DNA of 64,000 nt from Diadema setosum (lineage: Eukaryota > Echinodermata > Echinoidea > Diadematoida > Diadematidae), in NCBI RefSeq assembly GCF_964275005.1, contig NC_092688.1:24739440-24803439 (forward strand), read 5' to 3'. This document shows, piece by piece, positions 1 to 33,893 of the stretch. Each line of letters opens with the position of its first letter. Positions within the stretch are counted from its first letter, which is position 1. A model generated the notes under the pieces. It ran no database searches and had not been told where the DNA came from. It saw only the letters and a list, made by a program, of their open reading frames with translations. The position numbers and the translations under genes are program-made.

Positions 1-241
1 AAAGCAAAACATAACGCTAACAGTTCAATAATGATCTACCAGCCAGTTGCAATGAAATGTGGAAAACAATACCAGCTGTTACCGCTGGTACCGTTGATAC
101 TTACAGTGCAATAGATGCATAGGACATGGTAAAATAAAGAAAAAATATGAATACATGTGAATCCTCAGAATGAAGCTAGAACGTTGCTTCCTTCTGCATA
201 AGCAAAATGTAGGTCAGGCCTTCAGGCGTCTAGTTTTCGTG

Positions 242-1055
242 TCATATGCGTGGGTCGATATACGTGTACTCTGGGCAAGAGTGCGGTTCTTGGTGGGTCT
301 CGGACTGGTCTGGAGTAATTTTACCAGCATTTGCTCCGAGAATGAGATAGCCATGTTCATCTTCCTCCAGCTTTTCGCTCGGTTTGCCCGAGTAGATAGA
401 TGTAGTCGAAGAGTACAATCAATCGTTCAGGCTCTTCGGAAGAGGGGTAAGCTTTTCATTTTTACTGGCATGCCTGTATTCATGCCATGGCTGCGGTCCT
501 TGTATTTTCTCTGATTGGTCTGGAGTAATCTCTTTGGCAATTGCTTCGAGTACGAGGCAACCTTGTTCATCCATTTTTTTCGCTTGATTTGCCTGAGTAG
601 ATAGCTGTAGAATATAGTGGATCGTTCGTTCGCATTGTTAAATTGACACGTTTTTCATTTCTGGCATTATGCTTGTAATCGGGACGTGAACATGGTACCT
701 GTAGGATTTTAGATTGGTAGGGAGAGATTTCACCGGTATTGGCTTCGAGAACAAGGTAACCATCTTCATCTACCTCAGGCTTTTCCCTTGATTTGGCTAA
801 GTAGATGGCTGTAGAATATAATGTATCAGCCGTGATCACTTCATTTCCTTTGGTATATTTGTACTCAACTGGTGTCTTCCATCGTGACTGTTCTTGAATT
901 GTCTCGGATCGGCGGTTTGGAGCAATTTGACAGGAATTTTCTGAGGGAAAGAGATTTTCATCCACCTCGGATTTCTCTCTCGATTGGCTTGGGTAGACGG
1001 ATGCAGAACCAAGACTGTCTCTCTTGCTGTTCATTTTGTCGGCATGATTTTGGTT
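242..1055 (-). CDS. Receptor A, terminal exon: tandem tyrosine modules of the cytoplasmic tail
   Basis: The acceptor CAG lies at 1056-1058 and the natural stop TGA at 242-244 (protein end EYTYIDPRI). The exon encodes four diverged repeats of about 65 residues. Each has an LYSTAIY-type motif, a GYLVLE or GYLILG motif (YxxL) and a DYK/EYR/EYT tyrosine; the first repeat is degenerate, with ENLFPSE in place of the GYLVL site. A 1-base expansion of the T run near 573-580, compared with copy B, shifts frame after SGKSSEK. A TGA is met soon after in the original frame near 431-439. If real, this copy keeps only the first GYLVL site. A sequencing error in the T run is possible. Confidence 0.7.
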
Positions 1056-2222
1056 CTGTGAAGATACATACAACACGCAAGATAATGTGGACAAGTTGAT
1101 GCAGCTATAACATGATCACTCGATTTACCTGGCCATCTCTCTAGAGACTCGTGAAAACTACATTAGGAATACTTAATCTGCTTTGTGTGTTTTGTCAACA
1201 ATGACACCAATATCCAGAATTTATGGAGAAGTTACATTTGATGATGACTTCTAGAACTACACAATTGACACCATCAGGATCGTTAATGTGATGATACAAA
1301 TGATGCAAAGGTCTGAATGTGTCAGTTCTAATTCGTGTATGAGCTATGGGATGCTTAGTGGATGCTTTTTTTTTTCATTGCTTGCCAATGACGAAAAACA
1401 TGGAATCAATACCTCCGGCCGTGTATCAAGTAACTACTAAGCGCACGGTAAATTTACTGGATACATGATTTGCTAGGTAATAGGCAATTCTTACTGGGTG
1501 CGAGAACGTATGAATATAGCGAAATTTTGCAGTGAGATGATGCTCCTGCTTCACAGAGATGCTCTTCTCAGATTGGGAATAACATGTCAATGCGCTAAGT
1601 TTCGTTGCACTTAGCAGTTTCAGAAGAAGCAATTTTTCGTTTATTTTTCATAGTGTTTTTATAATAGTAGTAAAACATTTATTTCGCACAACCTCCTTTC
1701 CGTTTCAAAATGTAATGTTCCCAAATATTAGTAGTGAATCTATTTTTTTAGTGTTCATTATACTTTTTTAGAAGTCCTTGTAAACATTCGAAATAGTTTT
1801 CAAATTTTATCACTGATATATTTCTAACGCGTTCCCCAATTCCATGGTATGAGTGACAAGGGATAAATAATTGTCATTATCATTGTTATTGTTGTTGCCA
1901 TTGCTACAAGTCTGCGATAACGTGTTAACAGCATAAGTATAATTTCGAGGCAACCTTTGGTTAGGAAAAAAAAAACCCAAACAAAAACAAAGCAGAGCTC
2001 TCGACCAAAGAGTTCCGAGGATTTTCGCTACCCGTTCTACAATCATCGTATAATAAAGATGAATCGATTATCAATGGAAACGTAGTCACTGTAGAATAGC
2101 ATGCTTAAAGAAATCTGTATGAGAATGCCCTTTTGAGTATTTTCTCTGATATTTACTAAAATGCATTATGCATATCAATATTCCACAAAATCCATATATG
2201 CATATGCACACTTTCATTTCCG

Positions 2223-2259
<37 letters not shown>

Positions 2260-2908
2260 CATATGGGATACTTACTGAGCAAGTGACGTTGCTCTGTAAC
2301 GAAGATGCACAAAGGAAGACTTGTTCCAAGTTTGGTGCCTGCGAAGTTCCCATGTCTACCTCCGCAGCGTCCTGGTAGATGTGATACGGATCCTCTTCAT
2401 GAGCAGTGACTTCTCTGCAAATGTTGTAATAGTGGCTCGGGAAAGGGTGACCCTCTGCTCCAGCGTCAGTACATATTGTACTAGTTTTGTTCAATACAAC
2501 ATGATCCGTCGAGCTCAAATTTGGGTTTGAATTATCTACAGGATGCACCTGCAGTTGTCTGTTGTTTGGCTGATTTGAAGTGTGTGATGCTCTACGTCTG
2601 TAAAGGCAATTATGAGAGACATACACATTCTTGAAAGAAAAAAAAAACAGAACATAAATAACCAATATCACATTTCCAAGATGCGTGGGAAACATTACTT
2701 TCCAATATCAAAATCAAATATTTATGGTACATTATAAGAAAAGACATAACAATCACGTCATCTAGTAAAATATTGTGCTTGAATATCAAAATCCATTCAT
2801 ACCCTTTGAAATATGAAAACTGTGTTTTCGACGGCTACATACTCATATATTTTCTGTTGTTCCTTAAAGTTTCAAGCATTAATTGCATGACACACGCACA
2901 CACTCACA

Positions 2909-2946
<38 letters not shown>

Positions 2947-5900
2947 CGCACATACACGTGCACACGACATTAGGTTACGCAAACACTCACCTTTTCTTGT
3001 GATGCCTGCACACTACCATGACGAGAATGGCAACAAGTATTGGAACAACACACATAAGAACTGCCATTGCAAAGATGTAAACATCTCTCTGAGGAACTTT
3101 AGAAGCTGAAATGGAATTCAGTACAAAAAATCCTTGTCATCCCCCGTAAAAAAAAGTACATTAACGTATCATCAAGACAATAATCCTGAAATGATTGTCC
3201 ACAAATTAAACGTAATAAAAACACTTACTTGATATCTTAAGTCAGTATAATGTGTGTGTGTGTGTGTAAACGTGAGAGAGAGAGAGAGAGAGAGTAAAGA
3301 TAAATCTACTGGCAACATTGAACATGAGTTAATATCGCAAGCAGCAAAAGACGGCTGCAATAACCATTCGGTAAACAAGGTGAAATTGAAAATCTGAGAA
3401 AAAAAATACACGGTATCAGTGAAATAGTTTCTGCTTCAGTATTGAATATCTCATAAAATGAAATATGTGTATAGTTAGATGATATCTAAAGATAATGGTA
3501 TGCAACTCACTTGTAGTCGTTTCCATTGTGTCTGATATGATTACATTTTCAGTGGGTTTGCCATCTCCTATTTATGAAAAGAGCAAAAGAAGCAAGATGA
3601 TTAGTACAGACAGCCGCAATGATGACATCATTGTATTTATAGACCTACAATGACCTCGTCACCTAACATTTCATTTAAATTCATTTCATTTTCACATAAA
3701 AAAAATATTCCAAAGTAACATTGACGATTTGTAGAAGATTTGTTCCAGAAGCTTAAGTGTTATGAATCACATACAATTACAAACAATAGTATAATAACAA
3801 AATACATACACACCGATGGAGTAAATAACAAATTTTTATACCTAGTGGTGTCACATTTGTGGGCATGCTGATCAAGAGGAGATTAGAAACAGGATACCAT
3901 GTCCATGGAAAAGACTTTCACCAGTTATTCTGTGAAAAAGTTTATATTTCCACAACATGGTCGAACTATCTTCAATAGCCGTAACACTTTACATCTTTAT
4001 GAATATTTCAAATTTGAATTGACATTATGATTTCACTTTTACTGTTCATGTTGGACTTTATAACTGCTATAACATAATGTATCTGTCAAATTTAGAAAGC
4101 CCATCTGTGCCCTTGTGTACAGCTGATACAATTTGACTTTGAACATAATTTTAGAATTTCAAACACACCGATGGACAGAAAAAAAAGTGATTACAGCAAT
4201 TGTAAACTTAACAATGTGAGGGGTACAAAGGAATGGTACACAACTGTAAAGTGGCTAAAGTCATCTTACTTATAAACGACGTGGCGGTGACCTCGGGCAA
4301 TGATGTTGTTAATTCATAAGTAAGCAGTCCCTCGCCTGTTTCATTGGAGGAAATCAGGGGCATTTTGGGTAATTAATAATAGTTGTTAATGACCGAGGTC
4401 CATAGAATTAAACTTTGCGCAATCTTATTCGTGGGCATAAAATGCTGTAATAGTTTACTGAAAGACAAATTTAGAGAAAACAATCTGTCATCAGTAGTTT
4501 TCACAGCTGTTGGATTCAAGTTTCTAATGGTGCTGATGTGATTTGCGAAATCGGTAGGGTAGTGGTAGGGTTAACAGCAAATTTAAGTCAGATAGAAACA
4601 TAACAACAAACAAACATGACAACGAATCGCAACTGATACCGAAACACACATCACAAAACAACTACAGTAAATCTAACAGCACCTAGCTGGTAAATACTTT
4701 GAATGCTACTGACTGGAGAAGTAGTCTGTATTCTGTGTAGGCGTTGTGTTGATGGTTCCACCTACGCATTAACATAAACGTATAAGACTTGATTCAGCTT
4801 CAGTGTAGCGCGATAAATCCTCTGGCACAATTTGGAGATGTGAAACACTTTCACGGGTATTGCAAGATTCGGTAAGCCTTTTAAAACTGTCGATAGCGTA
4901 TGTAGTACAAAATTCTTCCCGAACTGATTGACATTTAGATAGCGGTAAGCTAAACACTTCCCTCCCCATCGGTGCATTTTGACTTTAATAGGAGAAAAAC
5001 GTGAACACTGTTTTCTTATTTGAAATGACAACAAATGTGAACACATTAAAAAAAACAAACAAACCTGTACTGTATCGTTTTTACACTTTTGATTTTCAGC
5101 TAAACAGCGACAGTGGTCGGAATTTTCATTTATGGTTTCGGCTGCTTTCACTGTTATTTTTTCCTTTTTCTAAGGAACATAGTCTAATGTAATGAACATA
5201 TTATATACAATGATTCATCCTCAAGTTTTTTCTCATCCACTCCGTCCATTGTAGCCAAAGAAAACTTTGACCTTTCACATGATACAATCTGTATATCAAC
5301 TACGAACCTTTTGTTACATCTTCGAATTTCCAGCAGAATGGGATTGGCACGTTCCAGATCGGAAAGTAAGTCGACCGTCCGGGTAGTCCCACACACTGCA
5401 GTGTCGCACTGCCATTGATGCTGTAGCCTTCATCACATATGAGAGTTATCTTAGACCCAAAGCTTGTCACATTAGAGTCCCAATGACCATTTGGCACATG
5501 ACCGGGGTAAACACAAAACCCCAAAGGAACTGTCAAAAAAGAAAATCAATAATGGAGTTTGTATTATTATATATATACACTCAGCAAAAAAAGAAAGTAA
5601 ACACTTTTTCAAGTTTAGATTTCTCATAAAATATTTGGCTGAAAGCTAATGTGTTATATACCATATTGAAGGTAATTTAATTGGCTATCAACCTGGTAGG
5701 TCGACAAAAAGGGAAACTTTACGCATGAGTGAACACCATTGTTTTTCTCTTCCAGAGCACAAAAGTAAATATTACAAAACTGAACAAGTTGTCATTAATG
5801 CGTATGTGCTCTTCCATAGAACAATAAGAACAAACAACAAATTTCACACACACACACACACAAAACATAAATTAAGTTGCAAAAATAAACCTTTGATCTC

Positions 5901-8900
5901 TATGATAACTTTAAAGCCCAAAAGATCAATGAAGGCTAAAAATAATGGAGGAAAATAAAGCATCACATGTCAAATCTAAATTCAAATGAAATAAAAGAAG
6001 AAGTAATAATTAACAAAAATGGTAGAAATTTGAGCTTTTTTTTCAAATCAGGAAATTGTAAATAATGTTTGATGTTTATTCATAATGATGAACACTCTTT
6101 TACATCATGTATTATGGAGGAGAGGAAAAACATTGCGTCAACTCATCAACTTTTCACACATATCCTCAGTGACACCAAACAGATCACCACCATACCAGAC
6201 TTTCTTGGAGTATAACAACATCCGACGAGTGTCGAAACTTCCTCTACCCCACTTTGGCTGACCACGTTACACCAATTTACACAAATACATATACATAACA
6301 ATATGCTCAAGTCTATAAATTATTTTTTGTAAGATCGCAACTGCTGATATGTAATTAACAAACATGTGGGAGAAAAGGAACATGGTACTTGAACCTGTCA
6401 TCTGCTGCTTTCCGGGCAGTAACACTACCACCAGCCTATCCCTGGTTGCCGACAAAATACCCAAGCTCCTGAAAGCAGTAGATGACAGGTTCGAGTCCCG
6501 TGGTTCCTTGTTCCGACATATTTGTTAATTACAGATTAGCAGTTGCGAACTTACAAAAGTATTATCATTTGTAGAGGGAGACAAATTGAAGAAAATTGAT
6601 ATTCTCTTGCTTTCATTAATGCCTTGTCCGCTTTGGACTACTTTAACAGAATGTCGGAATTTAGGAGCAGTAGATGACAGGTTCGAGTTCCGTGGTTGCT
6701 ATTGTCCGACATGTTTGTTGAGTACAGATCAGTAGTTGCGATCTTACAAAATTTCATTTGTAGAGGGAGACACAATTTAAAAAATTCACACCTCGACCTT
6801 CACCCCTCTGATTAATATACTCATGATTCCGATATGCTCAACTCTTTCTGCATTGGTTATGATATACATGTACATTTAAGCATAATTCAGATAATTTGTG
6901 TATACATGTCCTGAATTTCACCTATTATTATTCTGTTTGTTGCAAAACATACAGCCGCGACCAAGGCCAAGAAGACCCAAAGCTTGGCGAATGAAATACA
7001 GAAAAACAACGTCCTTGACAGTACCGCCCCTACTTTCATTCACGTCAAACTATTCACATGAATGCACATGCATATAGAACGATTTGGTTATCCTTAACTG
7101 ATTTTTCCTTGCGCCTACATCAGTGCACCACAGTGACACTGACTGTAAGGTGTAAACAACATTCACAAAACTCCTAATTTCTGTCGACCTTTGTTATGCT
7201 TTTGCTTGTTTGTCTGGTTTTCTCAAATTAATAGTTATCTATTCATTATAAAACTGATATTTATGGTCTATGGGCTATTTATACTCACTGTTGAATGAAT
7301 AATCAACCAGTTGACCAGATTTGTGCTCTGTACGTCTGGGACATATCCATTTTTGAGAATTCCTTCCTTCAGACTCAGTCTCGCCATACGGTTCTGATTG
7401 AAAGCATAATGTGTACAATGTAACGTATCATTTAACGTATCAGATTCCTGGGTTTGCCTTCATAGGTAAAACGAGCAATTTTAGTTAGAATAAACGTCAA
7501 ATTAAAACAAAGAAGACAAAGCTAAAGAAATGTCCGTTCACTATTAGCATCCCAGAAGTCCAGGTTTCCCATAAATGCAAAACGATGGTCGCCTGGGAAA
7601 GCTGCATGTACCGAATACATTGGTCAAAAGTTATCAGGCCAAGCCTAGTTACAGAAAAAATACCAACAGCAAATAAACAACCAAACAAACATGTTCCGTG
7701 CAATGTGGACACATTTCTGCCCTTAAATGCGTGATAAAATGGTAGTTCTACATAATGACACAACAAACATCAGCGTGTTACTGCATCATTGGGCTCACCT
7801 CGGCATTTGAGTTGAACAGCCTCATTCGAAGAACAGTCAGGGGCTGTCAACTGTAGACAATCCTCGAAACGTTGATACTTGCCAATAACTGTGCATTAGT
7901 GTTATAGAACTCAGTTACAAACCTTCAAAGACATTGATTAACTCATAAAAAGGGTAGTAAAAAATCATGTAAGTACTGTTTGGAAAGTAAATATATATTC
8001 TTATTTTAATCTGTAAATTTCTAACGGTGTGTTTCCTGATAAGATGAAACTGGCTAAAGTAAGTTTATTCCATTATTTAAGAAGGGTGAGAAATTTGAAG
8101 TCAGTCTATCGTCCAATTACATTATTACAAACCTTCAAAGACATTGATTAACTCATAAAAAGCGTAGTAAAAAATCATGTAAGTAATGTTGGAAAGTAAA
8201 TATATATTCTTTTTTAACCTGTCAATTTCTAACGGTGTGTTTCCTGATAAGATGAAACTGGCTAAAGTAATTCCATTATTTAAGAAGGGTGACAAATTTG
8301 AAGTCAGTATATCGTCCAATTACATTATTATCATCGTTGTCCAAAGTTTTAGAGAAACTTATTTATAAGAGAATTATTAAGTTCTTGAAGTTGCACATTT
8401 TTTTTTATTACTAATTCTCAATTTGGTTTTCGAGAGAAACTTCCCCAAGGCCTTCGACACAATTGATCACGATATTATACTCCACAAGTTATCACATTAC
8501 GGAATACGTGGAAAGGCCTTGGAGTGGTTCAAGAGTTAATTAGGAAATAGAAAACAATTTGTTACGATCAAAGACAATTACTCAGTAATAAGAGAAGTAA
8601 AGTGTAGCGTTCCACAGGTAAGTTTATTCGAGCCACTATTATCTATTGTTTATATTGATGATTATTGTCAGGCATCTGAAGTACTTTCCTTTATCCACTT
8701 TGCTGACGATACCAATGCATTTTTTGCCCACAATGTTGTTAATTTTCTTGTTCAAAAAAATCAATTTTGAATTATAGAAAGTGAATCATTGGGTAAGAGC
8801 CAATAAATTATCGTTGAATGCCCCAAAAACGAAATATATGATTTTTAGTAATACTGCTGACACTTTGAGTACAGCTATAGTTTTGGATGATTTTCATTTA

Positions 8901-11900
8901 GAAAGAGTTTCACATTTTAAATTCCTTGGGGGAAAGTTTATTCGTAAATCGACATGAATATTCGTGATAGCCATTCACTCACAAAATTTGAAATTCACTT
9001 GAAAATCTGTCTGAAAGTCTGAAATAGCATAACCTTATTTGTTTCTGAAATGTACGTAACTTCAGAAGAATTTATCTTTTGATTATGTTTTGGTTTACTA
9101 TTACTATGCAATACTGTAGTCACCATTACGACATGATAACCGTCTAATCCTGTTCCTTCTTGGTGTGCTTTGCAATATTTGAGGCGAATACCCCTCAGCC
9201 GCTGGGAAGCCGAGCTCTACGCATGCCAGTTCGGCAGCTTCGTCGTTAAATCCATCATAGCAAACATATTTGTCTGTTTCGAAGACGACCAAGCCTTCAA
9301 GGGGAGAGGGTCCGTCAACCAGCATCACTTTGGGTGTTTCTTTAGAGCGAATGGTAAAAATATGAACATTATGGGGTGCCACAAGGCTCGATACTGGGGC
9401 CGGTATTATTTTTACTTTTTATAATCGATATTACTCACACGGTCAAACATTGTGATTTATCTCTTTATGCAGATGATACATGTATGTATTTTTCCTCCAA
9501 TAATCCTGTTGAAATGACAAGATGTATAAATCAAGATTTGAAAGAGATTTCTACGTGGTTGACGGCGAATAACCTGGTTTTGAATGCTGATAAATCAGAA
9601 TACATGATTTTGGGTTCCAGGAAGAAGTTGAAGTATTCTCATGATTTTGGTATTATTCTTCAAATAAATGGTATAAGATTGAAAGAAGTATATAAATGTA
9701 AAATTTTAGGAGTTATATTTGATCCAAACCTTACATGGAAACTTCACGTGGATTATATAAGAGAGAAAATTTTGAGAAATTTATTCCTACTGAGGAAAAT
9801 CCGGTTTTGTGTGAATTTCAAAGTTGCAAAAATGTTGTATTTTTCTATCATTCAATCTCATCTGGATTATTGCTCACCAGTATGGAGTAATGCCGCAAAG
9901 TACACTTTGAATAGGCTCTTTGTTTTACAGAAAAGGGCTTTACGTATAAGTGTTTTAAAGGTAGATAATTTAGAAAGAACCTCAATACTGTTTAGTAAAT
10001 CAGGTATATATTCAATATATGTTCGTTGGAAAAGAGTAAATGTGATTTTGTTGCATAAATGTTTGTACGGCTTTGCTCCACAACATCTTTCGTCAAGAAT
10101 ACATTTAAAAGAACACAGTTATAAACTCCGTAATTCTCAGGTTCAAATTTGGTTACCCAAACCTAAAACAAATCTTATGAAAAGAAGTTTTTTTCTATGC
10201 AAGTTCAGGTTTATTCAATTCATTGTCATTGGTCACCCGAAACACAAAAGATATACATTGTTTTTGTAAGAAGATGAAAAATGAGATCCAGGCTTCTTAA
10301 GTTGTAATTTGATATACAATGTATTTGTATTCATATTTTTAATATCTTTTTTTTATATAAAGTATTGTTTTATTTATTATTTGGTCACCGGTTCCAAGTT
10401 TCCGGTTTGAGATATCCCCTTCTTCATAATATATATACACACACACACACTCAAATACGTTTTTGTTGTCGTTGATTAGTATTTTGATTAGGTATTTAGT
10501 TGTGTTAAGTTAAGTTCTCTGAGCGTATTTCTATCGTTTTTTCCGGCTATTTCTATTACTGCCATTATTTCAATATATGATATTAACATGTCGACTGTGA
10601 GTCATTGTGTGTATATCTTTTCTACTTGCCACTGAAATAATTTTGATGAATTTATCAATCAGTTGACTGTAAGTCACATTTTAAATTTTTTTACAATGAT
10701 TTCATACCCACGTTGTACAAGTTAAAATGTGTATTTATCGCTGTTGTTTTTTATATGAATTTTATATGTACATGTATGTCACGTGGACTCCTTTGAAAAT
10801 CAGCTGTGCTGAAAGTTCTATCCACCCTATTGCTGGAAATGAATCAATAAATAAATAAATTTTTGAAATCTGATAATAAAACTCTGGATTCATTTCTAGA
10901 TCTACGCGGATGAATAAAATTAAAGCACGATTATGACTGAGTAAGGCTTTAGAAGGGTGGCCGTTTTGAAATAGGAACGTTTACCGGCAGTATTTTTGTT
11001 TTCTGCCCCAAGTATGTACTCCTTCTACATCAATTGTTAAAGGCACTTGTCTTCACGTTTGTGATTTTATTTGTTGAAATGTTAAAGGCAGGAAATGAAG
11101 GCTACAATAACAAGTTAAATGAGTATTTAATGACAGTGTTTAAGTTTGTAAGAAGCGCACTATAATGATTTGGCAGTAATATATTTCCACCTTGTTTTCT
11201 TTTTCTTTTCTTGTGTTACTTTTGCTTAAGAATTTTGGATTGGAAGGCAAAGTCCATGTTTGAAACGTGTTTGAGAAGAAAGAACTCACGACCAAAGATT
11301 AGTTAGAAAGAAAATTACAGTCGAGGATAAGCCATGAATTCCTTTTGACGCATTGTTCGGCTGCTGGGTGTACTTATCTTATCTTCTTCTCTCTTTTTTT
11401 TGGATTACTGAATCCTCCCCGTCACATTAACTCTACTATTACAATAACGCTGCTATTACAATCTATTGAGATGAACAGATTTAAGTAGTGTATGCCGAAT
11501 TTGGTAAAAACGTGATAAAGACATTATAATTTCCATTGTACGCTCACTAACTCCCTCCAAAGTTCACATCTTAACAGCTTAGGTGGATCATGTGAAATAA
11601 CTTTATAATGATAGTGGAGACATATTTTGACTTTATAAGGGGGAACTATGGCTGAAAGAGAGAGAGAGAGAGAAAAAAAAAAACAAAACAAGTGTCATTC
11701 CCCTTCCGCTTGTTTGTTATTGGATTACAATCGTTGTGTTTTCGGCAAAGCAAATCATGACACTGGTTTTCCTCTAGTGAACACACTATGCATTTACTTC
11801 ACGTGATAAAAAACACACACATTGAACAACGTGAAATACAAATAGGCCTATGTCGGTATCAAACACTTGTAATCATAATCATACGGATATATACTTGCCC

Positions 11901-12939
11901 TCGTTACACTTCCCGCTGATCTGAAATTCCACTGGGTAGGTATATATATATAATTGCAGGAACTGTAAAGTGAGCTTCGTCTGATGAGCAAGTGATAACA
12001 TGGGAGGAGACGGAGGAAAGCGCAGAATCGTGGTGTTAAATGACTTGTCAGCTATCTCATCCTGCACATTAAATTTCAGGTAATTGACTGACTTCACTTC
12101 AAATGAAATTCTCGACCCGCAAGGTGCTTGTAGAATCCAGCTGTCCCCATTGCTGGCGCAAAGTCTGTCGCACCGCACCTTATGGGGCTCTGCTGGGTTC
12201 CCCGAACAATTTAGAGGTAAATCTGCAATGGATAAAGAGGGGGAAATAAAGTTCATCGTTATTCAGTGACAAATCATGAATTGAAGAAGAGCAAAATGAA
12301 ACCCCAAAAAACAAAACAAAACAAAACAACCAAACAATTCAGTATTTAACGCTTAACTTTTTTTCTTTGCCAAAAATCTTCAGATATCATTTCATCTATT
12401 TTTCTTTGAATTGAAATAATTGCTCTGCAGAAAAAGATGTCACTTGGGTTCTCAAGGTCCATTTGAAAGTAAAAGCTTTTCAAAACAAAGAAAAAAATCT
12501 TATCATGTCAGGCAATTTAGTGGCACATCACGATAGTCAAAGTGGAAATGGCTTTTAAACTCACGTAACAAATAGTTTGAGTGCATAGTAATCTATTGAA
12601 AGCAGTATTCAAGTTTGGAGCGCTTTTGGCAAATAAACACGACAGCACAATACAAATAAGCTAGGAAAATCAAATCGCTAAATAACCAATACACGACAAA
12701 AGAGAACAGCATAAAATTGAACTTTTAAGAAGTTCCAGTCCCAGGGTTAGGGCGAGAAGTGTTTGTGTTCACTAATTCCCTCCTTTCAATTACAGTGCAA
12801 CCTGACTAACAATAAAGAAAACAACGATATTCGTACATGTTTCTCCTGACAAACCGACTGACGGATAACAGCACAGGAAAACGACAGTAAACCATGCTAG
12901 GTCGGCCATTCTCCTGTCTTTTGCGACATTCAAAGTCAT
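242..12939 (-). CDS. SRCR/CUB/CCP transmembrane receptor gene, copy A (12 exons)
   Basis: Hand-built model with exons 12837-12939, 11899-12222, 9115-9339, 7799-7888, 7289-7393, 5308-5529, 4714-4761, 4270-4335, 3511-3567, 2991-3105, 2276-2597 and 242-1055. It predicts about 829 residues: signal peptide (about 1-33), CUB-like (35-142), group A SRCR (143-247), linker, CCP/Sushi (282-356), stalk (356-413), transmembrane helix (about 422-446) and cytoplasmic tail (447-829). Every junction keeps phase, and all extracellular exons after the first are phase 1-1. The summed length is one base over a multiple of three because of one frameshift in the last exon, which is followed by an in-frame TGA, so the tail is shortened or the assembly has an error. 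SRCR and CCP domains typically bind ligands or microbes. The tyrosine-rich tail suggests signalling through SH2 proteins, which is inference. I do not recognise a named orthologue. Confidence 0.75.
2224..2256. repeat. (CA)n microsatellite
   Basis: An uninterrupted CA run sits just downstream of the cytoplasmic exon donor of receptor A. Copy B has a (GA)n run at the same intron position (32632-32651). Confidence 0.9.
2276..2597 (-). CDS. Receptor A, first cytoplasmic exon
   Basis: The 322-bp exon has its acceptor CAG at 2598-2600 and a strong donor GTAAGT at 2270-2275. It begins with basic residues (RRRASHTSN) that extend the stop-transfer sequence of the previous exon. It carries tyrosine motifs HYYNIC and DPYHIYQD within an acidic stretch. 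Copy B differs at only a few residues, for example AEGH versus AEGQ. The exon starts in phase 2 and ends in phase 0, joining NVTCS to NQNHADKM of the terminal exon. Confidence 0.8.
2891..2955. repeat. (CA)n microsatellite
   Basis: This imperfect CA tract lies next to the donor of the transmembrane exon. A shorter CA tract is at the same place in copy B (33291-33360). Confidence 0.9.
2991..3105 (-). CDS. Receptor A, transmembrane exon
   Basis: The 115-bp exon runs from acceptor CAG (3106-3108) to donor GTGAGT (2985-2990). It encodes a hydrophobic helix of about 23 residues that starts VYIFAMAV and ends in a basic stop-transfer CRHHKKR. This places the N-terminal domains outside the cell and the tyrosine-rich part inside. 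The encoded protein is unchanged in copy B by eye. Confidence 0.85.
3252..3295. repeat. (GT)n(GA)n microsatellite
   Basis: Compound GT then GA run in an intron of receptor A. In copy B the same spot has expanded into about 90 bp of (TA)n plus GT and GA runs (33712-33892). Confidence 0.9.
3511..3567 (-). CDS. Receptor A, juxtamembrane stalk exon
   Basis: The 57-bp phase 1-1 exon has acceptor TAG (3568-3570) and donor GTGAGTTG. It encodes [18 protein letters not shown], a hydrophilic Thr-rich stalk just outside the membrane with no cysteine. Copy B has the same exon at 34109-34165 with one residue change (DAMETTT). Confidence 0.75.
4270..4335 (-). CDS. Receptor A, stalk exon 2
   Basis: The 66-bp phase 1-1 exon has acceptor CAG (4336-4338) and donor GTAAGATG. 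It encodes [20 protein letters not shown], rich in Ser and Thr and probably O-glycosylated stalk. In copy B (35208-35270) it is one codon shorter. Confidence 0.65.
4714..4761 (-). CDS. Receptor A, stalk exon 3
   Basis: The 48-bp phase 1-1 exon encodes [15 protein letters not shown]. The acceptor is TAG at 4762-4764 and the donor is GTCAGT, weaker than GTGAGT in copy B (35648-35701). Its small size makes it the least certain coding exon, but phase and conservation in the other copy support it. Confidence 0.6.
5308..5529 (-). CDS. Receptor A, CCP/Sushi domain exon
   Basis: The 222-bp phase 1-1 exon is a complete Sushi (complement control protein) module. It has four cysteines in order (GFCVYPG, LICDEGY, LQCVG, PFCW), the GY after Cys2 and a Pro before Cys4. 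The acceptor TTTTTTGACAG is strong. The predicted donor is the unusual GTTCGT; copy B has GTTTGC at the same point, and the phase fits the next exon. CCP modules mediate protein binding in complement regulators and adhesion receptors. Confidence 0.85.
5530..7288. other. Intron of receptor A with repeats
   Basis: This 1.76-kb intron separates the CCP exon from the linker exon. It holds CACTCAGCAAAAAAAG at 5577, which resembles a DNA-transposon end although I found no matching right end, and tRNA-derived SINE pieces at 6262-6780. The equivalent intron of copy B is 18 kb because of large insertions. I see no exon in it. Confidence 0.6.
6262..6780. mobile_element. tRNA-derived SINE fragments (three pieces, both orientations)
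   Basis: A minus-strand piece (about 6262-6455) has a tRNA-like head with A-box-like GGTGGTAGTGTT and B-box-like GGTTCAAGTACC. Two plus-strand pieces (about 6472-6560 and 6663-6775) each carry B box GGTTCGAGTCC or GGTTCGAGTTCC followed by the shared body CCGACATGTTTGTT, GTTGCGATCTTACA and TTTGTAGAGGGAGACA. The same family appears in copy B at 45040-45215 and 45345-45430. Inverted neighbouring copies give the locus some fold-back potential. Confidence 0.6.
7289..7393 (-). CDS. Receptor A, linker exon between SRCR and CCP
   Basis: The 105-bp phase 1-1 exon has acceptor CAG at 7394-7396 and donor GTGAGTAT. It encodes a polar segment ([29 protein letters not shown]) with one cysteine. It belongs to no domain family I recognise. 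The copy in B (54777-54881) keeps the E..GRNS/ERNS, K-W and CPR positions, so it is under constraint. Confidence 0.7.
7799..7888 (-). CDS. Receptor A, second SRCR exon
   Basis: The 90-bp phase 1-1 exon has acceptor CAG (7889-7891) and donor GTGAGCC. It encodes the C-terminal half of an SRCR domain, with cysteines in FEDCLQ, PDCSS and the closing LKCRG. Together with the exon at 9115-9339 it gives six cysteines, the group A pattern. Copy B has the equivalent at 55526-55612 (MDCQ, GDCLL, LKCQG). Confidence 0.75.
7918..8330. repeat. Two-unit tandem duplication of about 210 bp
   Basis: The motif AACCTTCAAAGACATTGATT recurs at 7919 and 8129, followed each time by the same intron sequence and the same LINE start (GGTGTGTTTCCTGATAAG). 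The unit includes host intron plus LINE, so it arose after the LINE inserted. Confidence 0.8.
7965..8950 (+). mobile_element. Decayed CR1/Jockey-type LINE reverse transcriptase fragment
   Basis: Plus-strand reading frames give [19 protein letters not shown] and FKKGDKFE, then [22 protein letters not shown] and FADDTNAFF. These are the fingers, palm and YADD-like regions of non-LTR reverse transcriptases of the CR1/Jockey group. It is broken by several stops and frameshifts. It sits in the intron between the two SRCR exons of copy A and is absent from copy B, so it inserted after the duplication or was lost from B. A 210-bp tandem duplication (7918-8127 and 8128-8330) spans its left edge. Confidence 0.75.
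9115..9339 (-). CDS. Receptor A, first SRCR exon
   Basis: The 225-bp phase 1-1 exon begins at acceptor AAG (9340-9342). It encodes the SRCR N-terminal half: [44 protein letters not shown] and RLSCRNGDY. The hallmark motifs VxLVDG, EG, VCxDGF, A..AC.ELGF and LSC are all present. The donor GTATTG at 9109-9114 is weak, but it alone keeps phase with the next SRCR exon before a TAG. Confidence 0.8.
9373..10861 (+). mobile_element. 5'-truncated CR1/Crack-type LINE with AATAAATA tail
   Basis: The copy starts abruptly inside the palm motif [11 protein letters not shown] and runs as one open frame (9376-10269, 297 codons) through [57 protein letters not shown] and LQKRALRIS. This is the C-terminal half of a CR1/Jockey-superfamily reverse transcriptase. 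A 590-bp 3' region ends in AATCAATAAATAAATAAAT. It lies in the intron upstream of the first SRCR exon, opposite in strand, and begins only about 33 bp from that exon. Copy B lacks it. Confidence 0.8.
10862..11898. other. Intron of receptor A without recognised features
   Basis: Intron sequence between the LINE tail and the CUB-like exon. It aligns loosely with 57915-59640 of copy B. It contains a short (GA)n run at 11658-11675. I see no coding exon. Confidence 0.6.
11899..12222 (-). CDS. Receptor A, CUB-like domain exon
   Basis: The 324-bp phase 1-1 exon has acceptor GCAG (12223-12226). It encodes about 108 residues. [16 protein letters not shown] matches the CUB core pattern (W.L.AP.G.RI.F.V) and it ends [14 protein letters not shown] like a closing CUB strand. 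Cysteines lie at [17 protein letters not shown] and GKCNE. It is degenerate, lacking the usual D-x-V-x-I-x-D string, so CUB is a moderate call. The donor that keeps phase is GAGG then GCAAGT, a GC-AG intron. Copy B lacks this exon. Confidence 0.65.
12223..12836. other. First intron of receptor A
   Basis: Sequence between the signal and CUB-like exons. It includes a short (AAAAC)n run at 12305-12332. Its right half aligns with 59670-60170 in copy B. No exon is seen. Confidence 0.6.
12837..12939 (-). CDS. Receptor A, first coding exon with signal peptide
   Basis: The exon encodes a hydrophobic leader ([20 protein letters not shown]) followed by a polar cleavage region (GET). I chose the Met at 12937-12939 ([11 protein letters not shown]) because copy B has a matching Met in frame (MALSIATDRRM). 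A second Met (MADLAW, 12907-12909) is also conserved and would give a shorter signal peptide. The open frame continues up to 13137, but that extension is interrupted by a TAA in copy B, so it is probably 5' UTR. The donor GTACGA leaves phase 1, which fits the CUB exon. Confidence 0.7.
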
Positions 12940-13372
12940 TATTTTGTCAAAGCAGCAACTGCGAACTTCCCGTCTAATCTGACGATTGGCCCCGTCTCTG
13001 TGCCGGTTATCCCTGCCTGTGACTCTTCCGTAATACCTATTTTCAATATTAAAGAATTTCGCCCTGGCCTGCGAGGGGTGCGGAGTGATCGGATGTAATT
13101 CTATAACAAGAAACAGTAACCACATTACAATCGACACAACGGGTCAAAGTGCGCGTGTTAATACTGCGCAGGACTGGTACCGTCGTTTGTGTGTCGAAGT
13201 ACAGTTTAATAAAGCAATTAGCATTCCGATATCCAGGCAGAAGAGGAAGGTACAGAGGCCGCTTTTAATGAATGTTATGCATTCGTTCAATATTTATAGA
13301 AGAAAAGGCTTATAGAATTCCCCCTCTCTCATTCCCTCTTTCAAACATTTATCCTTACTTTCATATCCGTGT
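12940..13372 (-). promoter_or_regulatory. Conserved 5' flank / 5' UTR of receptor A
   Basis: This stretch aligns with 60283-60640 upstream of copy B at clearly higher identity than the nearby introns. Shared blocks include CGCCCTGGCCTGCGA, TGTAATTCTATAACAAGAAA and AGTGCGCGTGTTAA. Conservation and position suggest 5' UTR and proximal promoter. I see no TATA box at a conserved place. This is inference. Confidence 0.4.
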
Positions 13373-13380
13373 TTGGATAC

Positions 13381-15215: not shown

Positions 15216-15246
<31 letters not shown>

Positions 15247-18180: not shown

Positions 18181-18262
18181 ACACACACACACACATACAC
18201 ACACACACACACACACCCACACACACACATTCACACACACACACACACACATACACATACGT
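18172..18262. repeat. (CA)n microsatellite
   Basis: CA tract at the right edge of the duplicated unit. Unit B ends in a similar CA tract (62349-62384), so the duplication breakpoints may lie in these tracts. Confidence 0.85.
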
Positions 18263-18400: not shown

Positions 18401-18475
18401 ACTCTCCGTGGCCGAGCGGTTAAGGCGTTGGCGTTCCATGCCAAAGTCCCGGGTTTGGTTCCTGGCGGAGACCAA
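18401..18475 (+). tRNA. tRNA-like sequence (pseudogene or SINE head)
   Basis: The stretch reads as a tRNA cloverleaf. The A-box region is GTGGCCGAGCGGTTAAGG, as in Leu/Ser tRNAs. The anticodon stem is TTGGC/GCCAA around the loop GTTCCAT (apparent anticodon TCC), the T arm is CCGGG-TTTGGTT-CCTGG, and the acceptor stem is nearly paired (CTCCG with CGGAG). The D arm and the anticodon do not belong to one normal tRNA type, and the T loop departs from TTCGA. A (TA)n tail follows. A SINE or pseudogene is more likely than a working tRNA. Confidence 0.45.
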
Positions 18476-22690: not shown

Positions 22691-22693
22691 AGT

Positions 22694-26867: not shown

Positions 26868-27324
26868 TTAAGGATAAGGTTAGTATTTCAGTGTTGAAGT
26901 TTATCGTATCAAAAACAATAACAACAACAACAACAACGCTGATAATACTGTTTTCAGTGGCGACAATGATTTGTCTTTAATGATCCTTCCTCCAAGTTTA
27001 CTTGTTGATGACATGTGCAAACGTAATAATGTTTATATTCCTAAATAACTGTCAATGGGATGAAAGAGTTCGTACGGTAATTATGTGTTTAATACACACC
27101 ATTTTACCCTCTCAATTTTCATATCTTGAGCCGAGTGAGAACACTCAAATGTGATAAATTGCATATCAATGGGGAAGTGCTTGAACTGTAGGATTTTATT
27201 GCCATACTAGCGCCCTCTCGAGAAATAAATGACATCTACTCAAGTTTGTGTTTGGTTTTCTGAAATATAAGCAGTGAACTTCACATGAATGTTCATAACA
27301 GTAATTCAGTTATACAACACAATT

Positions 27325-27958
27325 TGTGACCCTGCACCTCAAAACAAACAAAAAGTCGCCAGACATGAATTTCTAGTTAATACCATATTCTGAAAGAGCA
27401 GACTTTAAGCTTTAAAATGACGTATAACACAAACTCAGGAAAAGTGTGAACTGAGAAAAGAGACTCTGAAGTACAGTGTCTATTCAAGCGCTTAATCTTT
27501 ACCAAACCGTGCTGGCTGTGCGATGAATGGGACAAAAAACAGGAAGTAAACCACCAGAGTGACAACAATGAAGGGATTATCAGATTAAACTGAAATTAAG
27601 CATGCCTCATTAACACATTCTATTCATAATTAATGCCAACTTTCAAAGCAGTAGCACTATCCTTTCAAAAGGTATTAGAGGTGAAAGTGAAGAGTGTGGA
27701 CAAAGTTTTTCAGAAATGAAAAAGGGATTCTAAAGACACACCTAATCACACTATTCTACCAAAAATGTTCGAGATAAACTGCTAAAAAGACACACTTTCC
27801 TGCCCGTGTTATGATACCAAATTTTAGCATAATGTAAAAGAAGACCCGCTCTTTCAGAAAATATGAAAAAGTCAAGTTTGGCTAGGTTGACCCATTTGCA
27901 GTCCTCACGCAAAATCAGTGTGTGCGACTTTATGTTTGTTTTGAGGTGCACGGTCACA
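27325..27958. mobile_element. TGTGACC MITE, copy 2
   Basis: Inverted termini TGTGACCCTGCACCTCAAAA and TGTGACCGTGCACCTCAAAA, with the family interior (AGAGCAGACTTTAAGC, ATTCAAGCGCTTAATC, CACACTTTCCTGCC). The flanks are TT rather than TA. The 60-residue frames found in each copy (CFLSHSSHSQHG) are the same non-coding interior. Confidence 0.8.
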
Positions 27959-30399
27959 TTTAATACGCAAGTAAGTTGTTGTGTTCATGTTTTTCATCTA
28001 TTTCATCATAGTTAATCAGGTATCATGTTTTTACAACGTGCTGCTTAACGTGCTTTTCACCCTATGTGATCACTCACTAAATCACTCATTTAGTTAAGCT
28101 TGAAGCCACTTTCATAGTTGAATTAATACACTACATAACATGTCTGTAAACCGATTTTCTCTTTTGTTAATAAACAGGACACAAATTGATTACTTTAAAG
28201 CGAATATTCATACAACAATCAGGCATTGTATATAGAACAAAGAAACAAAATGAGGGAAAACCAAACATGGGATGGAAGGGAGAGGTATAGAGTAGAAGAC
28301 AGTAATACATGCTTGAAGTCACTACAAATGGGATGCTAATCCGGACAAACATTTAACATTAAAAAAAATCCAATATACTCTAATCTAGTCTATTAAGTAG
28401 GAACAAAGTAATATCTTTGATCAAATAATCATGATTTTAATCATATTTTTTTCCGTTTCATGAGTTACAATAAAAAAATAATAATCTTTTTTATTAAAGC
28501 TAATGCAGCATAATACTGTTGCTGTTTGAACCTAGCAAATATCTGCCAAATTTAACATGCCATAACAATAACAAAAAAGCAGCAATTGAATCAGAAATCA
28601 GAATTTAATCAGAATTGAATCAGAAAGTGGAGAGATTTGAAAAAGTAAATTGAATCATAGAGGTAAAGGGAAACTCATGTAGTAGGAGCGACATGATATT
28701 TCAAGCATTTAGTATTCATGATGATAAGATCAATAGCATCATGACATATTCAACGAAACACCGTCCATATTATAAAATATTTTACCAAGTAATAAGTTCT
28801 ATGCAAATTTACAAGAAATGTACAGTGACTGCTTTCGGTGTTGTGTGTAGTGCAATGTATCTGCAAAGATACTGACCTGGTGCGTTTCATCTCATTAATT
28901 GTTAATTAGTCTGGTTACAATGTCAGCATCCACGTACTTATCATGACCTTGTTTAATAGTAGAATCATACAGTAGCTATATAGTGCGAGGCATTTGCATG
29001 CACAAACATGAATGAATAGATTCCATAGTCTAGAGTTAAAGATAAAACATCAGTCACTGAGAGCAACTGTCCCTTGATAGATTATTGACTTTTCCTATGC
29101 GAGATCACGAACTGTACACATAATGCTTTGTAGAAAAAAAAAAGTCCACATTTTCTTTTAACGATATAAGTTCCAAATGAGGAGAATTTTATATCTTTTT
29201 CATTACATACTAGAATTCAATTAGTCAGCAGTTATGAAGTAAGAAGACAACCTATGGCTGTTCACAAAATTACACAATGTGAAATGATTGTTGTATCTAC
29301 AAATAAAAATCAATGTTGTAAAAAAAGGAAGACACTATCGAGCAATTCACAGCTCATTCATTAGTGTTCATTAACTCTTTTTATGATTTGTTCCATAATC
29401 CTCTCGTATAACCATTCTCGGTTGATTTGATAGTGTGACCGATAGCAGAGTTTCATGTAAACATGTAGAGCTTACAATTCTATGTGAGTTTCACCAATTG
29501 AAACGAAACGTCCTTTGTGACGTTAGTTGATTTGCTGAGCTACAAACTGAGAGGGAATCCTAGTGTGAAGGTAGCACGACAGCGTCACTGGAAAGGTATC
29601 TTTTTTATTTTTTTTTTCCAGTCGGAAATCACGAATGTGAAGGAAATTCAAATCGGAAAGAAACATTTCTTTTTTTATGGTTCTTACTGTTTTTGTCCTG
29701 CCAGTATGTTCTTGCCCGTGTATCCACTTTGCACAGGGAATTTAACATTATTTTGGAAATGATTCCTACTGAGGCAAAAGGTTTTTGTTTTTAATCATTT
29801 TGATTCATCCCTGAAATTACCACGCTTGATTCCTATCAGATTAATGTGGTTTTGATATCTAAAGTGATTTCTCATGGCATGGAAGGTACATTTACCACCC
29901 ACTTATCATTCTATTGTTTACTGTATTCCAATTCTAATTCCAATTTCAATCTATTTTTTCCACATTTCTCAATGAAAATACATCAAACATAACAAAGCAA
30001 AATGATACATGATATCCAGCTAGGATGCACAATAGACTATTGCAAACATAATAGAACATGATGGTCAATCTATGAAAGTTGAATCTAAGTATAAACGCTG
30101 ACGATGGAACCTACTGAAAAGCAAGTTTGTTAAGCGTAATTCCCAGTATTAAAACAGAGTGTAAAGATCAAAATAAGGAGCACTAATACAACATAGGACG
30201 AGAGTACAGAAAAAACAACAACTGTGGAATACAGCCAATTCTTTTCAAATAAAAGTAGGAAAACGAATAAACCATTATTATTATTATTATTATCGTTATT
30301 ATTATTATTAGTAGTAGTAGTATCAGTTGTTATCATCGCAATGTTAACAGTGAAGTTTTATAGTTTAAATTTAACAATTAGAAAACTATACAGTTCGTA
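27959..30399. other. Spacer between duplication units
   Basis: AT-rich sequence without a supported exon or transposon end. A (TTA)n/(TAG)n microsatellite lies at 30273-30330, just before unit B. Confidence 0.5.
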
Positions 30400-30634
30400 T
30401 ACAAAACATAACGTTAACAGTTCAATAATGATCTACCAGCCAGTTGCAATGAAATGTGGAAAACAATACCAGCTGTTACCGCTGTTACCGTTGATACTTA
30501 CAGTGCAATAGATGCATAGGACATGGTAAAATAAAGAAAAAGTGAATACATGTGAATCCTCAGAGAAGCTAGAACGTTGCTTCCTTATACATAAGCAAAA
30601 TGTAGGTCAGGCCTTCAGGCGTCTAGTTTTCGTG

Positions 30635-31441
30635 TCATATGCGTGGGTCGATATACGTGTACTCTGGACAAGAGTGCGGTTCTTGGTGGGTATCGGACTG
30701 GTCTGGAGTAATTTTACCAGCATTTGCTCCGAGAATGAGATAGCCATGTTCATCTTCCTACAGCTTTTCGCTCGGTTTGCCCGAGTAGATAGATGTAGAG
30801 TACACTTGATCGTTCAGGCTCGTCGGAAAAGGGATAAGCTTTTCACTTTTACTGGCATGCCTGTATTCATGGCTTGGCTGCGGTCCTTGTATTTTCTCTG
30901 ATTGGTCTGGAGTAATCTCTTTGGCAATTGCTTCGAGTACGAGGTAACCTTGTTCATCCATTTTTTCGCTTGATTTGCCTGAGTAGATAGCTGTAGAATA
31001 TAATGGATCGTTCGGTCTCATTGTTAAATTGACACGTTTTTCATTTCTGGCATTATGCTTGTAATCGGGACGTGAACATGGTACCTGTAGGGTTTTAGAT
31101 TGGTAGGGAGAGATTTCACCGGTATTTGCTTCGAGAACAAGGTAACCATCTTCATCTACCTCAGGCTTATCCCTTGATTTGGCTGAGTAGATGGCTGTAG
31201 AATACAGTGGATCAGCCGTGATCACTTCATTTCTTTTGGTATATTTATACTCAACTGGTGTCTTCCATCGTGACTGTTCTTGAATTGTCTCGGATAGGCG
31301 GTTTGGAGCAATTTGACTGGAATTTTCTGAGAGAAAGAGATTTTCATCCACCTCGGATTTCTCTCTCGGTTGGCTTGGGTAGACGGGTGCAGAACCAGGA
31401 CTGTCTCTCTTGCTGTTCATTTTCTCGGCATGATTTTGGTT
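30635..31441 (-). CDS. Receptor B, terminal exon: tandem tyrosine modules
   Basis: The acceptor CAG lies at 31442-31444. The frame is open through three GYLVL-type modules ([22 protein letters not shown]) and QVYSTSIY, then meets TAG at 30758-30760 where copy A has GAG. The natural end would be the TGA at 30635-30637. The protein therefore loses only the last GYLIL and YTYI sites. Copy B does not share the frameshift of copy A, so the two tails were damaged independently. Confidence 0.75.
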
Positions 31442-31731
31442 CTGTGAAGATACATACAACACGCAAGATAATGTGGACAAGTTGATGCAGCTATAACATG
31501 ATCACTCGATTTACCTGGCCATCTCTCTAGAGACTCGTGAAAACTACATTAGGAACACTTAATCTGCTTTTTGTGTTTTGTCAACAATGACACTAATATC
31601 CAGATTTTATGGAGAAGTTACATTTGATAATGACTTCTAGAACTACACAATTGACACCATCAGGATCGTTAATGTAATGATTAATGATGCAAAGGTCAAT
31701 TCGTGTATGAGCTATGGGATGCTTAGTGGAT

Positions 31732-31771
<40 letters not shown>

Positions 31772-32619
31772 GCTTGCCAGTGACGAAAAACATGGAATCA
31801 ATACCTCCGGCCGTGTATCAAGTAACTACTAAGCGCACGGTAAATTTACTGGATACATGATTTGCTAGGTAATAGGCTATTCTTACTGGGTGCGAGAACT
31901 TATAAATATAGCGAAATTTTGCAGTGAGATGATGCTCCTGCTTCACAGAGATGCTCTTCTCAGATTGAGAATAACATGTCAATGCGCTAAGTTTCGTTGC
32001 ACTTAGCAGTTTCAGAAGAAGCAATTTTTCGTTTATTTTTCATAGTGTTTTTATAATAGTAGTAAAACATCTATTTCGCACAACCTCCTTTCCGTTTCAA
32101 AATGTAATGTACCCAAATATTAGTAGTGAATCTATTTTTTTTAGTTTTCATTATACTTTTTAGATGTCCTTGTAAACATTCGAAATAACTTTCAAATTTT
32201 ATCACTGATATATTTCTAACGCGTTCCCCAATTCCATGGTATGAGTGACAAGGGATAAATAATTGTCATTATCATTGTTATTGTTATTGCCATTGCTACA
32301 AGTCCGCGATAACGTATTAACAGTATAGGTATAATCCCGAGGCAACCTTTGGCCAGGAAAAAACAAACAAACAAACGAAAACAAAGCAGAGCTCTCGACC
32401 AAAGAGTTCCCAGGATTTTCACTACCCGTTCTACAATGATCGTATAATGAAGATGAATGGAAACGTAGTCACTGTAGAATAGCATGCTTAAGAAATCTGT
32501 ATGAGAATGCCCTTTTGAGTATTTTCTCTGATATTTACTAAAATGCATTATGCATATCAATATTCCACAAAATCCACATAATGCATAATATATGCACACT
32601 TTCATTTCCGCACGTACAA

Positions 32620-32651
<32 letters not shown>

Positions 32652-33708
32652 TAAACATATGTGATACTTACTGAGCAAGTGACGTTGCTCTGTAACGAAG
32701 ATGCACAAAGGGAGACTTGTTTCAAGTTTGATGCCTGCGAAGTTCCCATGTCTACCTCCGCAGCGTCCTGGTAGATGTGATACGGATCCTCTTCATGAGC
32801 AGTGACTTCTCTGCAAATGTTGTAATAGTGGCTCGGGAAAGGTTGACCCTCTGCTCCAGCGTCAGTACATATTGTACTAGTTTTGTTCAATACAACATGA
32901 TCCGTCGAGCTCAAATTTGGGTTTGAATTATCTACAGGATGCACCTGCAGTTGTCTGTTGTTTGGCTGATTTGAAGTGTGTGATGCTCTACGTCTGTAAA
33001 GGCAATCATGAGAGACATACACATTCTTGAAAGAAAAAAAAAAACCAAACATAAATAACCAATATCACATTTCCAAGATGGGTTGGAAACATTACTTTCC
33101 AATATCAAAATCAAATATTTTCGGTACATATAAGAAAAGATATAACAATCACGTCATCTAGTAAAATATTGTGCTTGAATATCAAAATCCATTCATACCC
33201 TTTGAAATATGAAAACTGTGTTTTCGACGGCTACGTACTCATACATTTTCTGTTGTTCCTTAAAGTTTCAAGCATTAATTGCATGACACACGCACACACT
33301 CACATACCCATACACACACACAAACACACACACACACAAACACGCACACACACGTGCACACGACATTAGGTTACGCAAACACTCACCTTTTCTTGTGATG
33401 CCTGCACAATACCATGACGAGAATGGCAACAAGTATTGGAACAACACACATAAGAACTGCCATTGCAAAGATGTAAACATCTCTCTGAGGAACTTTAGAA
33501 GCTGAAATGGAATTCAGTACAAGAAATCTTTGTCATCCCCTGTAAATAAAAGTACATCAATTGGATTCGAAAAAAAAAAAGAAATATTTCTTTGTGCTTG
33601 ATATATCCCGTAATGGGTACACTTTAACGTATCATCAAGAGAGTAATCCTGAAATGATTGCCCACAAATGAAACGTAATAAAAACACTTACTTGATATTT
33701 TAAGTTAG

Positions 33709-33804
<96 letters not shown>

Positions 33805-33858
33805 CATATATATTGTTTCTGATGTATTGAGTGTGTGAGAGTATGTGTGTGTGTAAAC

Positions 33859-33893
<35 letters not shown>

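Follow-up and report, generated by a model that had tools for sequence, protein, structure and literature searches.

Near-identical signalling halves and diverged ectodomains in tandem SRCR/CCP receptor genes of the sea urchin Diadema setosum: a probable case of regional gene conversion

Receptor genes at the locus

The window analysed here, a stretch of 64,000 nucleotides from the genome of Diadema setosum (contig NC_092688.1; C4:24739440-24803439), contains two tandem gene copies, both on the minus strand and collinear over 19 chained blocks: A, at 1-18208, and B, at 30398-62385. Judged from their sequence, both belong to an array of tandemly arranged type I receptor genes, whose predicted plan comprises a signal peptide, a CUB-like part, SRCR and CCP domains, a stalk, a transmembrane (TM) segment and a tyrosine-rich tail. 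The two genes are nearly identical in their 3', signalling half, introns included, and strongly diverged in the ectodomain half, a pattern that is very probably due to recombinational replacement of the shared half, most simply by gene conversion.

Using sequence beyond the window from the same genome (912,680,840 bases in 102 contigs), we found A, B and their neighbours to lie in tandem on the same strand, about 30 kb apart. The sperm protein bindin has a match in this genome (best E 2.9e-54) and in none of 14 control genomes, in keeping with an echinoderm and probably a sea urchin. For the region of the first tail exon (tail1), 40 of 42 candidate matches were scored. Those with 77-100% identity number 20 and fall at C4 23.47-24.87 Mb, 19 of them in minus orientation; less similar tail1 matches form another set at C16 20.29-21.05 Mb (68-72% identity, with one 62-base match at 82%). 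Across 260 kb, made up of the window and 200 kb of further sequence, there are seven tandem copies (P1, P2, P3, P4, A, B and P7) and the tail of P8. The gene-length study covers these seven and Q, a far copy 1 Mb from P7 that is its close relative along the gene; P8 is represented by its tail only, and the other 11 of the 20 places lie outside the gene-length comparison.

The exons of A and B (Table 1) are models built from splice sites and phases. Copy A would encode exon 1, the CUB-like exon, an SRCR domain in two exons, a linker, the CCP exon, two stalk exons, the TM exon and two tail exons, with phase 1 at each junction up to the TM exon and 692 residues without an internal stop. The Sushi profile scores above the Pfam curated cut-off in both CCP exons; the joined SRCR exons of both copies fall under the PF00530 cut-off of 26.1 bits, those of A just under. 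'CUB-like' is a label given by eye, as a profile search returned no Pfam match for this exon, its sole PDB match has an E-value of 0.27 and a single-sequence fold model reaches a predicted local distance difference test score of 40.7. By tblastn, the exon is present in six of the seven copies, A included and P3 in part, and absent from B. Near its 3' end, the match breaks into two pieces, apparently in different frames, in P1, P2, P4, P7 and Q, and runs in a single frame in A, which served as the query.

A sharply bounded tract of near identity

The earlier note on this DNA, written from the letters alone, held A and B to be nearly identical, even in introns, from the start of the window to about 3600 and to diverge sharply beyond, and both statements are borne out. 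Between A 1-3585 and B 30398-34183 there are 130 differences in 3547 aligned bases (3.7%), distributed over coding sequence (27/982, 2.7%), introns (82/2009, 4.1%) and the region 3' of the A stop codon (21/556). Beyond A 3586, divergence is 20.5% overall. The change point itself lies at A 3586 (2-log-likelihood interval 3543-3607), a free sigmoid fit places the transition from 3.7% to about 20% within a scale of roughly 12 bases, and a split of this size was equalled in none of 200 permutations. The change-point and permutation results rule out uniform divergence along the gene, the outcome that the earlier note had named as refuting its claim, and a smooth gradient is likewise ruled out, because the step (three parameters) has a log-likelihood of -1273.6 compared with -1308.1 for the gradient (two parameters), a gain of 34 log units. 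Within the near-identical block, differences are spread unevenly when counted per 100 alignment columns (p < 0.001) but not when counted per 200 (p = 0.20). Since the change point falls just outside the acceptor of the stalk2 exon, the converted part of the gene comprises stalk2, the TM exon and both tail exons.

The likeness extends to sites that do not alter the protein. dS is 0.034 in the signalling half and 0.266 in the ectodomain, and conserved residues (methionine and tryptophan excluded) are encoded by identical codons in 98.0% (288/294) and 85.4% (140/164) of cases, respectively. Introns past the step diverge by 20.0% in A 3586-5600 (240/1201) and by 29.3% in A 5601-12836 (493/1682); upstream of the start codon, divergence is intermediate (234/1747, 13.4%). 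At the protein level, tail exons share 92-96% of their residues and ectodomain exons 50-75%, apart from the 20-residue stalk1 with 90%. The CCP exon differs at 18 of 73 residues (25%) and the SRCR exons at 24 of 71 (34%) and 11 of 28 (39%), in agreement with the 'quarter or more' that had been proposed.

Near identity does reach the start of the window, as the earlier note had it, but the true left end of the tract lies about 3.4 kb further to the left, at a change point of -3378 (-3396 to -3325; 0/500 permutations). In A, the whole tract is thus 6964 bases long, and 227 of the 5902 bases that align differ from B (3.8%); it is flanked by sequence that is collinear throughout and diverges by 11.5% on the left (188/1633) and 23.9% on the right (856/3576). 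Two ends within collinear homologous sequence, and the homogenisation of introns and silent sites alongside exons, are features by which regional gene conversion is recognised.

The relationships among the copies change at the same boundary. In the quartet of A, B, P3 and P2, informative sites in the tract favour A with B by 143:7:6, whereas those in 5601-12836 favour A with P3 and B with P2 (7:73:11). Over six outgroup pairs, 56-147 tract sites group A with B, compared with 3-11 and 1-11 for the other arrangements. In 3586-5600, all six quartets unite A with {P1,P3,P7} and B with {P2,P4} (37-64 versus 16-26 and 7-10), as do five of six in 5601-12836; counts upstream of the ATG start codon are small and mixed. 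Maximum-likelihood trees were computed from A-anchored alignments for three parts of the tract, 3586-5600, 5601-12836 and the region upstream of ATG, A and B being joined by four further copies and, from position 2001, by a fifth; the group A+B was set by the finding, and the remaining groups were named after first comparisons. In each of the three tract parts, A groups with B at 100/100 support, and the approximately unbiased (AU) test rejects this grouping in 3586-5600 (p 3.7e-6) and in 5601-12836 (p 1.65e-50). A sister relationship inside the tract but not in the ectodomain again marks conversion, as measured against the ectodomain.

Other pairs, selection and the state of the copies

In a second pair, P2-P4, divergence is 1-2% across most of 346-5346 (A coordinates), interrupted by two short islands of 34% and 14%; it is 7% on the left side and 10-35% past the right end. 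P2 and P4 are sisters in 346-5346, but the grouping P2+P4 is rejected in 5601-12836 (p 3.6e-5), where P4 falls with B. The mosaic of A-B is repeated in this pair, a second case within the genome. P3-P7, whose divergence reaches its minimum of 4.9% in 2357-4068, is a weaker case, in which replacement probably occurred as well. The right-hand ends of the three pairs, at 3586, 4068 and 5346, lie between the outer edge of stalk2 and the CCP exon. More generally, each of the 21 pairs shows lower non-coding divergence in its 3' half than in its ectodomain half; the pairs share copies and are therefore not independent.

The earlier note further spoke of diversifying ectodomains, and this part of its reading finds no support. 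For A-B, dN/dS is 0.73 in the ectodomain (bootstrap 0.49-1.09) and 0.79 in the signalling half (0.35-3.07). Pooled over the copies, SRCR, linker and CCP together have a pN/pS of 0.73, and dN exceeds dS in none of 21 pairs. Taken singly, SRCR has 0.80 (4 of 15 pairs, including A-B with 0.239 versus 0.218), CCP 0.71 (2 of 21), the CUB-like exon 0.64 (0 of 15) and the second tail exon, tail2, 0.65 (1 of 15). Positive selection on the ectodomain as a whole thus finds no support, and pairwise comparison gives no clear sign of ectodomains being driven apart, though a few sites may still be under selection. The TM and tail1 exons (2276-3105 and paralogous regions) behave in a manner opposite to that expected of a conserved signalling part, with a pooled pN/pS of 1.16 and dN exceeding dS in 14 of 21 paralog pairs. 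Constraint therefore does not account for the likeness of TM and tail1, which goes back to an event at the DNA level.

The last exon is built from a unit of about 66-68 residues repeated in tandem, in which YSTxIY and GYLVL elements recur. The tails may signal through tyrosine motifs. A GYL[VI]L motif, mostly preceded by acidic residues, occurs in the six tails examined, with changes in several copies. Counted by pattern, there are one GYLVL-type motif in A, two each in B, P4 and P7 and three each in P2 and P3, with P1 left out; one P3 motif reads YLVP and one P7 motif has H for Y. In hemi-immunoreceptor tyrosine-based activation motifs (hemITAMs), acidic residues and a glycine stand ahead of YxxL. 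A hemITAM is described as a single YxxL motif in the tail (PMC9287148), and the array motif may be compared with it as a resemblance only. The tail of A is cut short because a run of adenines differs in length from that of B by one base, possibly through a sequencing error; that of B is cut by a nonsense codon relative to A, and the two end at different repeats. P4 carries a stop in exon 1 and P1 a stop in SRCR exon 1; B may not be intact either, as it lacks the CUB-like exon and the join of its exon 1 to SRCR exon 1 gives a stop. Given such copies, conversion may be a by-product of tandem homology rather than a means of maintaining function.

The window also contains mobile elements. Copies of an element of about 0.7 kb, about 93-98% alike, lie at 27325-27962, 39551-40247, 45916-46376 with 53804-53969, and 58152-58852. 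The first of these forms an insert of about 0.63 kb in the B tract that A lacks, and another at about -2284 in the A tract is missing from B; being copy-specific, both were probably inserted after conversion. A long terminal repeat (LTR) retroelement at 46377-53807 in a B intron is nested in one such copy. Its two 195-base ends are mutually identical, which points to a very recent insertion, and its long frame (48251-53023, minus strand) has a Pfam integrase ahead of reverse transcriptase and RNase H, an order that we take to be that of Gmr1-type Ty3/gypsy elements of deuterostomes. Also in a B intron, an element resembling long interspersed nuclear elements (37841-43649, plus strand), whose first frame is 333 aa long and whose reverse transcriptase region is divided among several frames, contains a copy of the 0.7-kb element. 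In A, a reverse transcriptase remnant (9358-10269, plus strand) adjoins SRCR exon 1, and a tandem array of a 282-base unit (13513-14798, 4.7 copies) lies just upstream of exon 1. Two arrays of short-unit repeats in opposite orientation (22116-23222 and 24467-25238) are separated by about 1.2 kb, and a transfer RNA gene was identified at 18402-18473 (Rfam, 43.8 bits).

Table 1. Modelled exons of copies A and B and extent of the shared tract, in window coordinates.
Feature	Position	Strand	Remarks
Converted tract, in-window part, copy A	1..3585	-	3' flank, tail exons, TM, juxtamembrane exon, introns; goes on to about -3378
A tail2 (last coding exon)	567..1055	-	Frame ends after repeat 2
A tail1	2276..2597	-	Splice sites and phase; 103/107 residues as in B
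A TM exon	2991..3105	-	36/37 residues as in B
A stalk2 (last exon within tract)	3511..3567	-	Splice sites and phase
A stalk1 (first exon beyond tract)	4270..4335	-	Splice sites and phase
A CCP (Sushi) exon	5308..5529	-	PF00084 31.1 bits, cut-off 20.7; 55/73 residues as in B
A linker exon	7289..7393	-	Open in A and B, phase 1 at both ends
A SRCR exon 2	7799..7888	-	Splice sites and phase
A SRCR exon 1	9124..9339	-	Joined SRCR exons: PF00530 24.6 bits, positions 2-99 of 100
A CUB-like exon	11899..12222	-	GC donor site; none in B
A exon 1 (start and signal-peptide-like stretch)	12837..12909	-	Splice sites and phase
Matching tract, copy B	27175..34183	-	Left end from alignment A 24736042 / B 24766595 and left change point
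B tail2	30758..31441	-	Three repeats, then nonsense codon relative to A
B tail1	32672..32993	-	Splice sites and phase
B TM exon	33387..33501	-	Splice sites and phase
B stalk2	34109..34165	-	Splice sites and phase
B stalk1	35208..35270	-	Splice sites and phase
B CCP exon	36581..36802	-	PF00084 28.6 bits
B linker exon	54777..54881	-	Splice sites and phase
B SRCR exon 2	55526..55612	-	Splice sites and phase
B SRCR exon 1	57452..57673	-	18.0 bits joined with exon 2
B exon 1	60177..60252	-	Direct join to SRCR exon 1 gives stop codon

Origin of the mosaic and its relation to known systems

Two sharp ends, the likeness of silent and intron sites and conflicting trees together strongly support recent gene conversion of the cytoplasmic half, as the earlier note had proposed. 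Our results establish a two-ended replacement, from which we infer non-reciprocal copying. Unequal crossing over between tandem copies, which would produce a hybrid gene whose 3' half is shared by duplication, would have the right substrate in same-strand copies about 30 kb apart and would readily leave a long shared tract. However, a single crossover predicts identity running leftward through the whole intergenic unit, whereas the tract ends at -3378 and gives way to collinear sequence; this left end largely refutes the idea, which would require two crossovers and which we regard as improbable. Slightly less probable again is an assembly artefact, in which an allele of the 3' half of B was misjoined to the ectodomain of A. 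The 3.8% divergence is of the size that we take sea urchin heterozygosity to have, but the single N gap in the 260 kb (24850434-24852933) lies away from the tract, P2-P4 repeats the pattern, and the inserts within the tract differ between A and B. Hardly any credence can be given to a scenario without transfer, with purifying selection on the signalling half and positive selection on the ectodomain. Although the repeated tyrosine motifs of the tails could be constrained, introns and silent sites match about as closely as exons do, which refutes it, and both the pN/pS values (1.16 for TM and tail1, 0.73 for the ectodomain) and the conflicting trees speak against it. Purifying selection on the tails is thus ruled out as the cause of their likeness.

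Several observations weigh against gene conversion or complicate it. A tract of about 7 kb is long for a single conversion event, and a double crossover would leave the same pattern. GC content at third codon positions (GC3) is not raised in the converted half (0.40 and 0.39 versus 0.45), a result that rules out GC-biased conversion. Every comparison outside the tract concerns the alignable part alone, the alignable share of A being 99% before the step, 74% in 3586-5600 and 29% in 5601-12836. The sixth quartet in the latter region (P7,P2) does not favour the expected split (8:14:16), and upstream of ATG the AU test does not reject A+B (p 0.135). The gene also has a mild gradient of its own and some rate variation: P7-Q, a pair in which no such transfer was seen, diverges by 1.8, 2.0, 3.4 and 3.9% from 3' to 5' and is uneven along its length (p 5.7e-6; 1.0 to 6.0% in single 400-base windows; SRCR part excluded). 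Q was initially taken to test long-range homogenisation and became a control later, rather than being chosen as one beforehand. This gradient is about twofold, compared with about sixfold in A-B. Finally, the nearest copies to A+B are P7/P3 in 1-2000 but P2/P4 in 2001-3585, indicating that the tract itself carries older mosaicism and does not fix the direction of copying. In a 500-base bin left of the tract, A is close to P3 (5.5%) and B is not (12%), which would make A the recipient, but the trees within the tract conflict with one another.

In the most probable reading, the ectodomain lineages {A,P1,P3,P7} and {B,P2,P4} separated first, and interlocus gene conversion between A and B later copied about 7 kb, from the 3' flank through the tail and TM exons to the juxtamembrane exon; a similar replacement took place in P2-P4 and probably in P3-P7. 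Conversion requires long matching stretches of DNA. The 3' half, 99% alignable between A and B, most likely stays convertible through its long unbroken homology, whereas the ectodomain half, split by insertions and indels (29% alignable in 5601-12836, where the B counterpart holds several kilobases of mobile elements), would escape copying and drift apart. The alignable shares are observed, whereas their causal role is inferred; the half that can still be copied would be copied repeatedly while the other drifts. The outcome is a set of receptors with a common signalling half and a differing recognition half, from which a selected benefit is possible. It is tempting to speculate, if with considerable doubt, that the array works by mix and match, such that recurrent conversion, its right ends bounded by the last stalk exon on one side and the CCP exon on the other, reassorts the 3' signalling and 5' recognition halves of about 20 genes and stops and frameshifts set the number of tyrosine repeats kept in each tail, changing the pairings of ligand class and signal strength.

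The closest published system is TLR1/TLR6, where converted fragments of 893-1033 bp are described with nearly the same boundaries in nine species (PMC2077338). There, too, tandem receptor paralogs are homogenised with sharp ends from the membrane-proximal ectodomain through the TM segment and most of the signalling domain, and the N-terminal recognition part stays distinct (PMC2077338). The array differs in that the comparison is within one genome, the tract is about 7 kb with introns and 3' flank, the domains are unrelated and the boundaries vary between pairs. Next come the clustered protocadherins of fugu, a tandem array described as having 3' parts that are more than 99% identical within subclusters, with raised GC3, next to a diverged 5' ectodomain and a discrete boundary (PMC1852091); here, by contrast, homogenisation proceeds pair by pair, leaves about 1-5% divergence and does not raise GC3. 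The paired immune receptors to which the earlier note had likened the pattern are its mirror image. Siglec-11 and Siglec-16 share with the array a partial conversion between receptor paralogs, but it is the ligand-binding exon that is described as homogenised, keeping ectodomains alike and signalling opposed (PMC5701461), whereas in A and B the tails are alike and the ectodomain exons, stalk1 apart, differ. Of that note's interpretation, conversion therefore stands, and neither the diversifying ectodomains nor the analogy to paired receptors does.

The sea urchin SRCR superfamily is reported to form large tandem families with Sushi and CUB partner domains and exon loss by stop codon, all of which resemble what is predicted for the array; the main text of that report does not use the phrase 'gene conversion' (PMC10855680). 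Among the matches listed in our literature search, which covered titles and the starts of abstracts and did not extend to preprints and most subscription papers, there was no report of such a pattern in echinoderm SRCR/CCP receptors. The regional conversion is thus of a known kind, and the animal group and receptor type are new as far as the literature searched shows.

Collectively, our findings add an invertebrate array of the SRCR/CCP type to the cases in which conversion keeps signalling halves alike and recognition halves drift. They also warn that similar tails in such arrays say little about gene age and that a diverged ectodomain is not in itself a sign of positive selection. Because one genome carries about 20 copies, the array lends itself to asking whether homogenisation is selected for or simply follows from where homology survives.

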